Source: Gallionellaceae bacterium (lineage in GTDB: Bacteria > Pseudomonadota > Gammaproteobacteria > Burkholderiales > Gallionellaceae). Taken from it: a stretch of DNA of 64,000 bases. The position numbers were made by a program, and so were the translations under genes. Numbering within the stretch: the first letter of the stretch is position 1; each line of letters opens with the position of its first letter. Shown here in pieces: positions 33,425 to 37,050 of the stretch. The stretch is from NCBI GenBank assembly GCA_019753125.1, contig JAIELH010000026.1:18262-82261 (forward strand), in the 5' to 3' direction. The notes below the pieces were generated by a model. That model was not told the origin of the DNA and ran no database searches. It worked only from the letters and a program-made list of their open reading frames with translations.

Positions 33425-34153
33425 GTGCAGGCAGTGAGCGCCGATGAATTGATTGCCGCCGCACAAAAATTGTCGCGCACCGTATCCGGCCTGTCTTTTT
33501 CTGCGCCGGTCACGCATGTCTATAACCCGCTCGATTATGCCTGGGCATGCCACGAGCAATACCTGCGGCGCTACGGCGATGGCAGGAAGCGCATCGTGTT
33601 TGTCGGCATGAATCCAGGCCCGTTCGGCATGACGCAAATCGGCGTGCCGTTCGGCGAAATCGCGGCGGCGCGCGACTGGCTGCATCTTGATGCGCCCATT
33701 GCCAGGCCATCGCGAGAGAATCCGGCGCGCCCCATCGAAGGCTGGTCATGCCCGCGCAGCGAAGTGAGCGGACGGCGGTTGTGGGGGCTGTTCGCGCAAC
33801 GCTTCGGCGAGGCAGACCAATTCTTCGCCGATCACTTCGTCGCCAACTACTGCCCGCTGGCGTTCTTCGCCGGCGCACGCAACCTCACGCCGGACAAACT
33901 GCCCGCAGACGAGGCCGCCCCGCTGTTTGCGGCCTGCGACGCCCATCTGGCAGAAGTGGTGCGCTCATGCGGCGCGGAGTGGGTGATTGGCATCGGCGGC
34001 TTCGCGGAATCCCGCGCGCGCAACGCGCTGGCAAAGGTTCCAGGCATCCGCTTCGGCCGCATCCTGCACCCCAGCCCGGCCTCGCCCGCCGCCAATCGCG
34101 GCTGGGCAGAACAGGCTACCAGGCAGATGCAGGAATTAGGGTTGTGGGATTAG
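33425..34153 (+). CDS. SMUG-type uracil-DNA glycosylase
   Basis: Removes uracil or oxidised pyrimidines from DNA. The family-1 SMUG signature is clear: FVGMNPGPFGMTQIGVPFGE (catalytic loop) and ILHPSPASPAANRGWAEQA (DNA-intercalating/His loop). 242 residues from a GTG at 33425, 5 bases after the preceding stop, so probably in an operon with the amidinotransferase-fold gene. SMUG homologues are patchy in bacteria. Confidence 0.88.
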   Translation: MQAVSADELIAAAQKLSRTVSGLSFSAPVTHVYNPLDYAWACHEQYLRRYGDGRKRIVFVGMNPGPFGMTQIGVPFGEIAAARDWLHLDAPIARPSRENPARPIEGWSCPRSEVSGRRLWGLFAQRFGEADQFFADHFVANYCPLAFFAGARNLTPDKLPADEAAPLFAACDAHLAEVVRSCGAEWVIGIGGFAESRARNALAKVPGIRFGRILHPSPASPAANRGWAEQATRQMQELGLWD

Positions 34154-34162
34154 TATCTATGC

Positions 34163-34318
34163 TCGCTGCCTGCGCTCGAAGATTGGTGTATTCCTCGCCC
34201 TTGGTCAGCATGGTGTAGATCAAGCGCGCCAACTTGAGCGCAGCGGCGGTCACGACTTCGGGCTTGTCCATGCGCCTGCACATTCTGCGGAAATATGCGC
34301 CCTGCGCTGACTGGCGAA
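34163..34318 (-). pseudogene. IS110-family transposase C-terminal remnant
   Basis: Read on the minus strand, QGAYFRRMCRRMDKPEVVTAAALKLARLIYTMLTKGEEYTN matches the C-terminal end of a second, different IS110 lineage (consensus KPE..T.AA.KLARIIY.ML..G..Y). No start, no catalytic part. It sits exactly at the boundary between the SMUG gene and the minus-strand cassette array. Confidence 0.7.
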
Positions 34319-34353: not shown

Positions 34354-35316
34354 TCATGTGGCTGGCCTAAAGAGCGCTAATACTTTTGTACGGAGAGCTT
34401 CGTCGCAGAATTCTTCCATGCCTAGCATTCGAATAAGAGCATCTACTTGTTCATCGCTTCGGTGTTCGTATGCGAGAAGCCTTTCAATTTTATGCTTTGG
34501 CAGATACTGATCGAAGTATTGAAATGGATTGGATGTCTTCGGCACATGCGAAATTATCAAGTTCCAACTGCACTTCTTCTGTATGCCTTCGTAGAGACGC
34601 TTGTATTCGAAGTAGGGCTGAAGGATTTGCGCATACTCTTCAAGTACGGCGCCTTTGTGCCAGGCATAAAAGCTTTGCACATGCTTTCGGTATTCAAAAA
34701 AGAGGTCGTAGATGTCGATTGTGTCCGAGGCGCTTTCAATAAACTCCCGTGCTTTTGCGGTCCAGCCATCCCATGCAAGCAACTCAGGCTTCGTAACCGT
34801 GAATCGAGCCGCTCGTGAGTGGGACTTGAAGTCGTGATGAATGACCCAGTTAGCCTGTGCGATGCGCCAATGAGTGTTGTAGTTTCTGAGGCATTGCAAA
34901 AAATCGTGTAGCCCGGGAGAAGAGAAGGCGGCCTTCAATCGATCAAAGTATTCGCTAACGGGTGCAGTCCCCTGAAATTTGCGTGCATGATCGACTAGCG
35001 CCATGAGAGACGAAGTGCAGTGAAAGAGCTTCTTTTTGACAGCGCGAATATGGCTCTCAGCTTCATTCACGTTTGCTTGGTGCCAGAACGTCAGATTTTT
35101 GCTGTGATCTCCGAAGAGACATATCTCGTCGAGAAGCTCGGTGGTGCTTGCATGAAATATCCATATAGTGTCTTCGAGATCCCACACAGCGCGCCATAGC
35201 TTGCCGCCCGAGGTCTCTTCAATTGACTCTCTTGCGTCCGAGAAACTTGTGAATATCGCGGCCTCAATGATGTCGCGAGACCAAGGATGCGGGACGGTGT
35301 CGAGGTAGCGGGTCAT
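34354..35316 (-). CDS. Hypothetical protein, minus-strand cassette
   Basis: 320 residues from ATG 35316 (MTRYLDTVPHPWSRDIIEA). The track start is a TTG formed by the integron core itself. It is a helical protein rich in Trp, His and Phe with no membrane segment and no domain I recognise. The start codon lies three bases after a GTTGGGC core site and directly downstream of the 67-bp repeat, so translation depends on that repeat. Lower G+C than the flanks. It ends next to an IS110 remnant and no complete attC follows. Confidence 0.7.
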   Translation of the reverse strand: MTRYLDTVPHPWSRDIIEAAIFTSFSDARESIEETSGGKLWRAVWDLEDTIWIFHASTTELLDEICLFGDHSKNLTFWHQANVNEAESHIRAVKKKLFHCTSSLMALVDHARKFQGTAPVSEYFDRLKAAFSSPGLHDFLQCLRNYNTHWRIAQANWVIHHDFKSHSRAARFTVTKPELLAWDGWTAKAREFIESASDTIDIYDLFFEYRKHVQSFYAWHKGAVLEEYAQILQPYFEYKRLYEGIQKKCSWNLIISHVPKTSNPFQYFDQYLPKHKIERLLAYEHRSDEQVDALIRMLGMEEFCDEALRTKVLALFRPAT

Positions 35317-35323
35317 GAGGCCC

Positions 35324-35390
35324 AACGTTAAGTGGCTATCCTATTTGACGCAAAATATTGCATCAAGCAGTTGCCTGTTTGTTTATAAAA
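35324..35390 (-). repeat. 67-bp repeat copy B (attachment site/promoter-like)
   Basis: One mismatch to the copy at 36774-36840. On the minus strand it contains TTGATG, 17 bases, then TAGGAT, a reasonable sigma-70-type promoter. A dyad TTGATGCAA-TATT-TTGCGTCAA overlaps it. Its end coincides with the G|TT crossover of the core site GTTGGGC. Confidence 0.7.
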
Positions 35391-35408
35391 TTTGATTCAT
35401 GGTCACAA

Positions 35409-35474
35409 GCCTAACGTAATGGAGCTAAGGGGCTGCGCGCTTTTGCGCAGTCCCGCTTGAGCGCAGGATTAGAC
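35409..35474 (-). repeat. attC site after brnTA cassette (66 bp)
   Basis: On the minus strand it runs from GTCTAAT (35474) to GTTAGGC (35409). The central hairpin GACTGCGCAAAAGCGCGCAGCCCC resembles attC 3 of the plus-strand array (CTGCGCAAAAGCGCGCAGCCCC). The brnA stop codon is inside the left core. Confidence 0.75.
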
Positions 35475-35783
35475 CGATGCATCCCTGAACGCCCGCAATA
35501 CGGTATTGATCTTGGTTTGGTAACCCGGCCCTTGTGCCTTGAACCACTCAAGGACATCTCGATCCACACGAAGCGAAATTGAAGACTTTGTCGGGAGCGG
35601 CTCCAATCCACGACGGACAATCCCTCGAACGATATGTTTCAAACTTGCTTCAGGGTGTTCGGCAGTTGTCTCTGCTTTGGAGTGCTTTGACTCTAAACGA
35701 GCCCAGTCAGTTTTTGACTTCGTCGAAGTAGATTTGTGTTTCACGTTTTGTGGCTTTTCGGAATGAGATGATGCGGATTTCAT
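35469..35783 (-). CDS. brnA: BrnA antitoxin
   Basis: 104 residues from ATG 35783. The lysine/serine-rich N-terminus is followed by the ribbon-helix-helix-like C-terminus SSISLRVDRDVLEWFKAQGPGYQTKINTVLRAFRDA, the BrnA signature. It binds BrnT and autoregulates the operon in known cases. As called it overlaps brnT by 77 bases; a later GTG at 35744 would shorten the overlap. Stop inside the attC core, typical of a tightly packed cassette. Confidence 0.83.
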   Translation of the reverse strand: MKSASSHSEKPQNVKHKSTSTKSKTDWARLESKHSKAETTAEHPEASLKHIVRGIVRRGLEPLPTKSSISLRVDRDVLEWFKAQGPGYQTKINTVLRAFRDASV

Positions 35784-35982
35784 GTTCGTTCTCCGTGTGG
35801 ACAATTGATACGGTAACACCAGCGAGCAATCCCAGCGTAACGAAGCGCTGCTCTCCATAACTGAACCGGTCGTCCTCGAAGGTGAAAGTGATGCCTTCGA
35901 ACACGCGCGGTGCGTCGACAAAATCGAGCCCGTGGTCTTTCAGATTCCGGGTGCGCTTCGTTTCTGTCCAGAAAAATTGCAT
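35707..35982 (-). CDS. brnT: BrnT toxin
   Basis: 91 residues: MQFFWTETKRTRNLKDHGLDFVDAPRVFEG, then RFVTLGLLAGVTVSIVHTENEHEIRIISFRKATKRE, the BrnT RNase-like fold. Type II toxin-antitoxin system with brnA. It is the second toxin-antitoxin pair in a cassette in this window. Confidence 0.88.
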   Translation of the reverse strand: MQFFWTETKRTRNLKDHGLDFVDAPRVFEGITFTFEDDRFSYGEQRFVTLGLLAGVTVSIVHTENEHEIRIISFRKATKRETQIYFDEVKN

Positions 35983-36046
35983 AGACGAATTGTATATACG
36001 TTTCGTGGACGTTGCAAGTCTCGGAGTGGGGAAGCCCTTGTAGTGG

Positions 36047-36095
36047 AATTAACCGGCTCCGCGCTTTTGCGTCCGGGTTGAATGTCGGGTTAGCC
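36047..36095 (-). repeat. attC-like site after CPBP cassette (49 bp)
   Basis: Minus strand GGCTAAC (36095) to GTTAATT (36047), with the inner AACCCGGACGCAAAAGCGCGGAGCCGGTT hairpin. Cores are imperfect, so it is a degenerate attC. The C-terminus of the CPBP protein (LTRHSTRTQKRGAG) is written through it. Confidence 0.6.
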
Positions 36096-36768
36096 CATGC
36101 GCACCGTGTAGCGCCCAGAAGGACACCAGTGCGACAGAAGCCAGCAACGGGACGAAGCCCCAGTTTTCGTTAAGTGGGGCAGAGAGCAGAGGGGTAAAGG
36201 AAAACAGAGCATCGTAGACGGTGTGAATGACGATAGCCGCAAGGATGCTCCCTGAATGAACGTATAAGACACCCAGCAAAATACTGGCAAGAAAAATTTG
36301 CGAAAACGTCCAGACTGTCGGCTCCCAGACACCAATATGCCAGGCAGTAAAAAGCGTGCTTGTGAACAGCACGGATTTCACGAAACCAAATTTTTCGGCC
36401 AAAAGATTCTGAACAATGCCACGGAACAAGAACTCCTCTTTCACGGCCACGGGCACACTGGTTACAGCGAAGAAAATAGCAAGAGAGGGCGAAAGGTTGT
36501 AGTGACCAACGACTGCCGGGATTAGCAGGAACAGGAACAATCCGACGATTAGCAATGGACTCCGAAACGTCGATGGGTTTGTGGTACGAGAGAGGATCAG
36601 AGGCCGCAACAGCCACCAGTAAATTGACGCTGTAGCGATGCGTAAAACCGTGCGAATTGATTCAACCTCAAATGACATCGGCTCATAGAAATGAAGCGTG
36701 AGCCTCGCGATAACCATGGAGAGCAACTCGGTTACAGCAACGATCACAAGGCAGCGTGTGAGATTCAT
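36049..36768 (-). CDS. CPBP-family intramembrane protease
   Basis: 239 residues, about eight hydrophobic segments. The glutamic-type protease motifs are present: EEFLFRGIVQNLL (EExxxR), FTAWHIGVW (FxxxH), and HTVYDALFSF. Such CAAX-protease-like proteins act in prenyl-protein maturation or bacteriocin self-immunity; role here unknown. The ATG is one base after the core GTTAGCC, with no Shine-Dalgarno between, and just downstream of repeat copy A. The last ~15 residues are encoded by the attC. Confidence 0.85.
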   Translation of the reverse strand: MNLTRCLVIVAVTELLSMVIARLTLHFYEPMSFEVESIRTVLRIATASIYWWLLRPLILSRTTNPSTFRSPLLIVGLFLFLLIPAVVGHYNLSPSLAIFFAVTSVPVAVKEEFLFRGIVQNLLAEKFGFVKSVLFTSTLFTAWHIGVWEPTVWTFSQIFLASILLGVLYVHSGSILAAIVIHTVYDALFSFTPLLSAPLNENWGFVPLLASVALVSFWALHGAHGLTRHSTRTQKRGAG

Positions 36769-36773
36769 GGGCT

Positions 36774-36840
36774 AACGTTAAGTGGCCATCCTATTTGACG
36801 CAAAATATTGCATCAAGCAGTTGCCTGTTTGTTTATAAAA
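36774..36840 (-). repeat. 67-bp repeat copy A (attachment site/promoter-like)
   Basis: Same sequence as 35324-35390 with one change. Promoter-like TTGATG (36816-36811), 17 bases, TAGGAT (36793-36788) points toward the CPBP gene. It ends at the core GTTAGCC. Sequence beyond 36840 differs from that beyond copy B. Confidence 0.7.
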
Positions 36841-36984
36841 ATTCATAACCGCTTTAATTTCAGTTGGCTGAGTCATTTTTAGTGCGGCCTGAAATTTTCA
36901 CCAGCCATCGTTCAAAGATACAGCCACGCGGCAACAACCTGCAAGGCGCTCTCTTAAGGAGGCACTGATTTATTCGGTTTTGTC

Positions 36985-37050
36985 GTTCCCGCGAAGGCGG
37001 GAACCCAGTTAAATCAACAGACTGGATCCCCGCCTTCGCGGGGATGACGA
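36985..37050. repeat. Paired palindromic extragenic repeat
   Basis: GTTCCCGCGAAGGCGGGAACCCAGT is followed after 11 bases by ACTGGATCCCCGCCTTCGCGGGGATGAC. Each half is itself a palindrome and the two halves are inverted. It is the widespread proteobacterial REP-like unit, located between the cassette array and the argA stop, where it may also stop transcription. Positions 36841-36984 hold nothing else I can name. Confidence 0.75.

Follow-up and report, generated by a model that had tools for sequence, protein, structure and literature searches.

A duplicated attI site in an integrase-less cassette array of a Gallionellaceae bacterium, and the leader frame and hairpin found in its relatives

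CALIN elements are clusters of attC sites without an integron integrase. Chromosomal integrons feed resistance integrons. To our knowledge, little is known of how they express their cassettes, which lack promoters and often a Shine-Dalgarno sequence as well, and ORF-11 has so far been treated as a feature of class 1.

ORF-11 of the class 1 site attI1 helps first cassettes that carry no Shine-Dalgarno sequence (PMC8876359). What is recognised at attI1 is the double-stranded DNA, with its L, R and two direct repeats (PMC4792948, PMC12901181). Excision by IntI1 has been measured for cassettes of the delta-attI type from class 1 and class 2 integrons, and the same paper describes a complete attI1-aacA4-attI1 case (PMC12901181). 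ORF-less promoter cassettes of Treponema carry an attC and promoters that have been tested (PMC8876359). In the open-licence literature, as represented mainly by titles and abstracts, ORF-11 together with attI appears to be confined to class 1 or is not generalised, and on this basis the wider generality of a leader frame is likely to be new.

The window analysed here is a stretch of 64,000 nucleotides from a Gallionellaceae bacterium (contig JAIELH010000026.1). It contains a 67-bp sequence in two copies:

36774..36840, minus strand: copy B, attI heading an array without intI, identical to copy A at 66 of 67 bases, with the first cassette directly after it
35324..35390, minus strand: copy A, attI within the array, separated from the core of the brnTA attC by 18-19 bp

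The identity of the two copies is far beyond chance. An earlier note on this DNA had described the repeat, its boundary and its sequence elements, and the description was borne out by reading of the sequence and by a genome search. Both copies read ...CTTAACGTT on the minus strand and then diverge, to TTGGGCC in one case and TTAGCCC in the other, at a G|TTRRRY core. The pair TTGATG-17-TAGGAT and the dyad TTGATGCAA-TATT-TTGCGTCAA are present in both copies, and the cassette ATG stands 1 base after the 7-bp core in copy B and 3 bases after it in copy A, with no Shine-Dalgarno sequence. The search for more copies, which the note had proposed, found in the whole genome copies A and B and one further copy adjoining intI (contig C7:15247-15313), and no others. 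All three end at a G|TTRRRY crossover, and a cassette comes next. The assembly consists of 97 contigs, its estimated completeness is 88%, and the repeat is short, which would favour an artefact of metagenome assembly as the source of the duplication. However, one base separates the two copies, copy A has unique flanks on both sides, and re-paired flanks would in any case put an attI after the brnTA attC; an artefact is thus very improbable.

The copy on contig C7 is about 91-93% identical to the window repeat. A complete intI, whose product has 325 aa and matches TIGR02249 with 500 bits, starts about 610 bp from this copy, and the copy faces away from the gene. This attI heads cassettes ending in attC-like sites, one of which folds strongly (z -7.25). 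A scan of named genomes with the C7 IntI gave 80 loci, many of them in Gallionellaceae, Methylophilaceae, Rhodocyclaceae and other beta- and gammaproteobacteria. Among named IntI the closest (93%) is from a Gallionella sp. MAG (L025), by which measure the genome appears to be Gallionella-like. In most of these loci a homologous attI lies 85-135 bp upstream of the intI start, again facing away from intI. The 67-bp unit is identified as attI because the C7 copy and its homologues adjoin intI and face away from it; the earlier suggestion of an attI present twice therefore holds, with a third copy and many homologues beside intI. Adjacency to intI was found for the C7 copy and dozens of relatives and not for copies A and B, where intI is gone. 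Judged by sequence, the repeat is the attI of a chromosomal integron lineage found in Gallionella-like bacteria.

The array between and around the two copies contains the following features:

36876..36898, unstranded: remnant of an intI-side motif of the TTTAG-N6-CTAAA type, from comparison with loci L024 and L016, with no intI after it
36049..36768, minus strand: first cassette gene, CPBP/Rce1-like protease (Pfam PF02517, E 2.4e-18)
36034..36096, minus strand: attC-like site belonging to the first cassette, read from sequence, its fold not significant
35707..35982, minus strand: brnT toxin gene of the second cassette (Pfam PF04365, E 3.7e-23)
35469..35783, minus strand: brnA antitoxin gene of the second cassette (Pfam PF14384, E 1e-17)
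35409..35475, minus strand: attC of the brnTA cassette, ending in GTTAGGC, read from sequence
35326..35414, minus strand: 89-bp ORF-less unit of the delta-attI type, from the crossover of the brnTA attC to that of copy A, read from sequence
34354..35316, minus strand: third cassette gene (ORF), headed by copy A

No intI was found in the window by tblastn. An argA-like gene (AA_kinase plus GNAT) occupies the intI side of copy B, where intI would be expected. A related genome (G012:C42) has an attI at the same place by the argA-like gene, likewise without intI, which suggests that the loss of intI is old. Other orphan attI sites were found in the same genome (G012:C71), in G011, G007 and G050, and in further genomes of the order, some of which keep intI fragments. 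Copy B heads an old array by the argA-like gene that has lost its intI, and copy A is a second attI-derived site inside the same array, where the third cassette now follows it. Elsewhere in the genome, contig C7 still encodes an IntI whose attI is a close match. Like a CALIN, the locus is a cassette array without a nearby intI; unlike a CALIN, it has kept attI, once at the head and once inside the array. Orphan and in-array attI sites mean that arrays with attI and without intI exist, a state that is missed by CALIN-type classification.

The right core of the first-cassette attC (36034-36040) is degenerate, reading ACAAGGGC instead of CGTTRRRY, and the junction between the first and second cassettes is therefore probably no longer recombinable. 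The brnTA attC has a stem that does not exceed shuffled sequences (z -0.91). The third cassette gene has no Pfam match, and no attC was seen after it. On the intI side, a conserved dyad TTTAG-N6-CTAAA lies about 25 bp upstream of intI in most loci. Like the box in front of the crossover it belongs to the TTAGGRTG type, and it may bind IntI or a regulator of intI. Positions 36980-37050 of the window hold a dispersed repeat with inverted structure (ttcccgcgaaggcgggaa...ccccgccttcgcgggg) that has many copies in the genus, and positions 34150-34290, just beyond the array, look by eye like the end of an IS110-type transposase.

The displaced, duplicated attI belongs to a known kind of site, but its arrangement is unusual. 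The 89-bp unit starts like a cassette (GTTAGGC...ATGAATC) and then becomes attI, so that a partial attI stands in the place of an attC, after attC(brnTA) and a short spacer. As in delta-attI cassettes (PMC12901181), attI takes the position within an array at which an attC would be expected, and the attC of another cassette lies upstream of it. Unlike those cassettes, this array is chromosomal and without intI, about 67 bp of attI are kept, and the unit has no ORF. The unit may be mobile, still excisable by IntI through attC(brnTA) x attI, a possibility that falls a little short of even. It is bounded by G|TTRRRY on both sides, its attC-x-attI layout matches that of attC-aadB-delta-attI2, which is excised by IntI1 (PMC12901181), and the same genome encodes an IntI with a 92.5% matching attI (C7). 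However, the unit is unique among 158 family genomes and has no attC fold: attC-type pairing (R''/R', L''/L') in the copy A region is no better than in shuffles, with a bottom-strand z of 0.20. The 22-bp start of the unit, GTTAGGCTTGTGACCATGAATC, is otherwise absent from the 158 family genomes apart from one match with three mismatches, and no source for it was found among them. Illegitimate fusion of two arrays is equally possible as the putative origin of copy A, because the left part (TTGTGACCATGAATC) resembles a truncated cassette start. The proposal of an ORF-less promoter cassette stood in part: the unit has no ORF and is delimited by two crossover points, but its right-hand site is attI and not attC, it has no attC fold, and no promoter signal rises above chance. 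It resembles the Treponema promoter cassettes as a short non-coding unit in an array and differs from them in ending in attI; its own promoter score is at chance level.

A short open frame precedes the crossover in each copy:

36778..36846, minus strand: leader ORF of copy B, 22 codons (MNFYKQTGNCLMQYFASNRMAT, then stop), its TAA ending 9 nt before the cassette ATG
35328..35363, minus strand: shortened leader ORF of copy A, 11 codons (MQYFASNRIAT, then stop), the upstream ATG being out of frame

Copy A has lost the longer leader. In the sense of the array, the leader frame at the crossover reads ...AGG ATG GCT ACT TAA or ...ACT TTA CGT TAG. Among 74 intI-linked attI, which were collected by a motif containing the crossover and whose crossovers were assigned by motif, 64 have the leader frame open throughout the 75 nt that precede the TAGG box, where dinucleotide shuffles predict 19.6. 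Each of the remaining five frames is open far less often, in 9, 28, 20, 22 and 14 of the 74, with 17-20 expected. When one sequence is taken per 70%-identity cluster, a partial and rough correction for kinship among attI sequences, the leader frame is open in 26 of 31 (7.1 expected). These relatives suggest that attI sites keep an open mini frame up to the point of insertion.

The stop of the leader lies at +2 in 39 of the 74 sites, at -4 in 21 and later in 14. The +2 stop is a TAG completed by the cassette's own GTTAG, and the -4 stop is a TAA inside attI. In the class 1 attI1 taken as a positive control (L185), ORF-11 has the same phase, with its ATG at -34 and its stop at +2. From the leader stop to the start of the first cassette ORF the median distance is 15 nt (quartiles 9-23), and 27 of the 35 cassettes that start at most 25 nt from the crossover have no Shine-Dalgarno-like sequence. 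The leader ATG is not universal, lying at -88, -76 or -70 in different groups. As in ORF-11, the frame is open to the crossover and stops at the junction; unlike in ORF-11, a Shine-Dalgarno sequence before the leader start is rare among the 74 sites.

A conserved leader peptide was rejected because differences by codon position (175/190/166) show no third-position excess. Lack of conservation in the peptide is expected if the act of translation is what matters. The unconserved peptide also fits another reading, in which some constraint at the DNA level, rather than translation, may keep the frame open. Of 13 orphan attI that lack an intact intI, only 4 keep the corresponding stretch open, in a small sample with partly truncated upstream homology, and the frame therefore appears to relax once intI is lost.

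An own Pc-like promoter, as put forward in the earlier note, finds no support in the sequence. The window pair TTGATG-17-TAGGAT scores 8/12, which is under the threshold of the promoter scan, and sites of this quality arise by chance at about 0.84 per kb. The best promoter scores of 43 attI regions average 8.26, against 8.23 in dinucleotide shuffles, and the TTGAYG-17-TAGGAT pair is missing from the second large attI subfamily. The full proposal is that a Pc promoter (TTGAYG-17-TAGGAT) overlaps the dyad and starts transcription just before the crossover, giving near-leaderless mRNAs, with copy A as a promoter cassette. Cassette ATGs within a few bases of the crossover agree with it, as does the recurrence of the pair at the same position, in a 9/12 form (TTGACG), in about ten intI-linked attI, all of this subfamily. 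However, both hexamers fall within elements conserved for other reasons, namely the dyad and the TAGGATG box, and a transcription start downstream of the leader frame would make the open frame pointless. The proposal is considered unlikely. A sigma-70 promoter in attI or in the antisense start of intI was rejected, as there was no enrichment, and no promoter transcribing the leader was found in the promoter-score searches of attI regions. A promoter at the repeat is possible but unsupported.

The second element in front of the crossover is the dyad:

36795..36816, unstranded: hairpin or dyad of copy B (TTGATGCAA-TATT-TTGCGTCAA), from covariation over 34 attI and folding z-scores
35345..35366, unstranded: hairpin or dyad of copy A, identical in sequence to that of copy B, from sequence and covariation

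All three sites of the dyad in this genome are attI, and in the genus it was found in attI only, apart from two unrelated palindromes in one genome. A genome-wide regulator site was rejected on the first of these counts. In an alignment of 34 attI sites (33 distinct), six of the nine pairs have changed on both sides. The covariation score is 0.222, against 0.109 in shuffles, and none of 500 shuffles reaches it; 86.5% of the alignment cells of the dyad are paired, compared with 33-47% in slid versions. In a set of 33 diverse attI, folding of the stretch between -62 and -5 has a mean z of -2.3 (top strand) and -2.0 (bottom strand), and the adjacent upstream control gives -0.15. Some 10 nt usually separate the end of the stem from the crossover, and the arms of different attI subfamilies have no common sequence at this kept position. 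These data support a hairpin that stands about 10 nt in front of the crossover and has been maintained by paired changes. Wobble asymmetry in the pair table was uninformative as to which strand folds, and no credible match to a known RNA family was obtained.

The dyad could instead be a protein operator or an accessory IntI-binding palindrome of the double-stranded attI, in place of a hairpin formed by RNA or by a single DNA strand. The paired changes in the two arms, the long near-perfect palindromes of some orphans (L196), the about equal folding of the two strands and the recognition of attI1 as double-stranded DNA (PMC4792948, PMC12901181) argue for this reading, whereas the restriction of the dyad to attI in this genome argues against it; it is held to be somewhat less likely than not. 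Because the arms differ completely between subfamilies at a kept position, a structure or a co-evolving IntI is favoured over one host regulator.

The reading preferred here combines an attI repeat, of which copy B heads an intI-less array and copy A lies inside it, with an intact attI that acts both as recombination target and as translation device; it is judged fairly probable as a whole. A short frame without a conserved peptide stays open across the whole intact attI and stops at the crossover, at the TAA inside attI (-4) or at the TAG completed by the GTTAG core of the inserted cassette (+2), with the hairpin directly upstream of the crossover region. Ribosomes stopping at the junction would restart at the cassette start codon a few nucleotides on, so that first cassettes could do without a Shine-Dalgarno sequence. 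The open frame probably helps newly captured genes to be translated, and we infer leader translation and a termination-reinitiation coupling of the kind described for ORF-11 (PMC8876359).

The likeness to attI1 and ORF-11 includes an attI beside intI and a short frame of the same phase whose end falls at the crossover, its TAG being completed by the core of the cassette. The site attI1 also has a short hairpin, GGGC-AGTC-GCCC, just before the L box. Unlike in attI1, the sequence is unrelated, the leader has no obvious Shine-Dalgarno sequence, some sites have an additional TAA at -4, the open stretch is longer (22-38 codons in this subfamily), and the coupling is a prediction from sequence. The conserved anatomy points to a general architecture of attI with leader frame and hairpin. 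The chances are about even that the attI of chromosomal integrons in general, beyond attI1, is selected as a recombination site plus a leader frame whose stop is completed by the cassette, with insertion setting up the coupling, and that the hairpin, conserved in position and variable in sequence, is one more component that has escaped notice. Should the frame belong to attI generally, each cassette insertion would build a translation-coupling junction.

Several other features were observed at attI sites of the relatives. An attI by a decayed or missing intI (L196, L192, L194, L191) can be a long near-perfect palindrome, which in L196 reads ATCCATCCTATTGGATGCAA-AATA-TTGCATCCAATAGGATGGAT. In type-2 attI (L042, L054, L114 and others), an ACACC-TCGA-AGGTG stem overlaps with another possible stem, after which comes a T run, an attenuator-like arrangement. 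A gene pair, the second gene being ParE-like (PF24732), lies between intI and attI in L018 (L018:4718-5175), and the same stretch occurs in L026, L027, L172 and L176; it is apparently a toxin-antitoxin module at the platform. Directly after attI, otherwise unrelated integrons have a near-identical start, GTTGAACTAAACCGCTACGCGGTGG... or GTTAAGCTCAGATAGCCGTGC..., in two groups (L026, L172, L117, L116, L131, L137, L139 and L140; L045, L059, L068, L072, L083, L085 and L126). The shared starts may belong to first cassettes that are very common, or to elements targeting attI.
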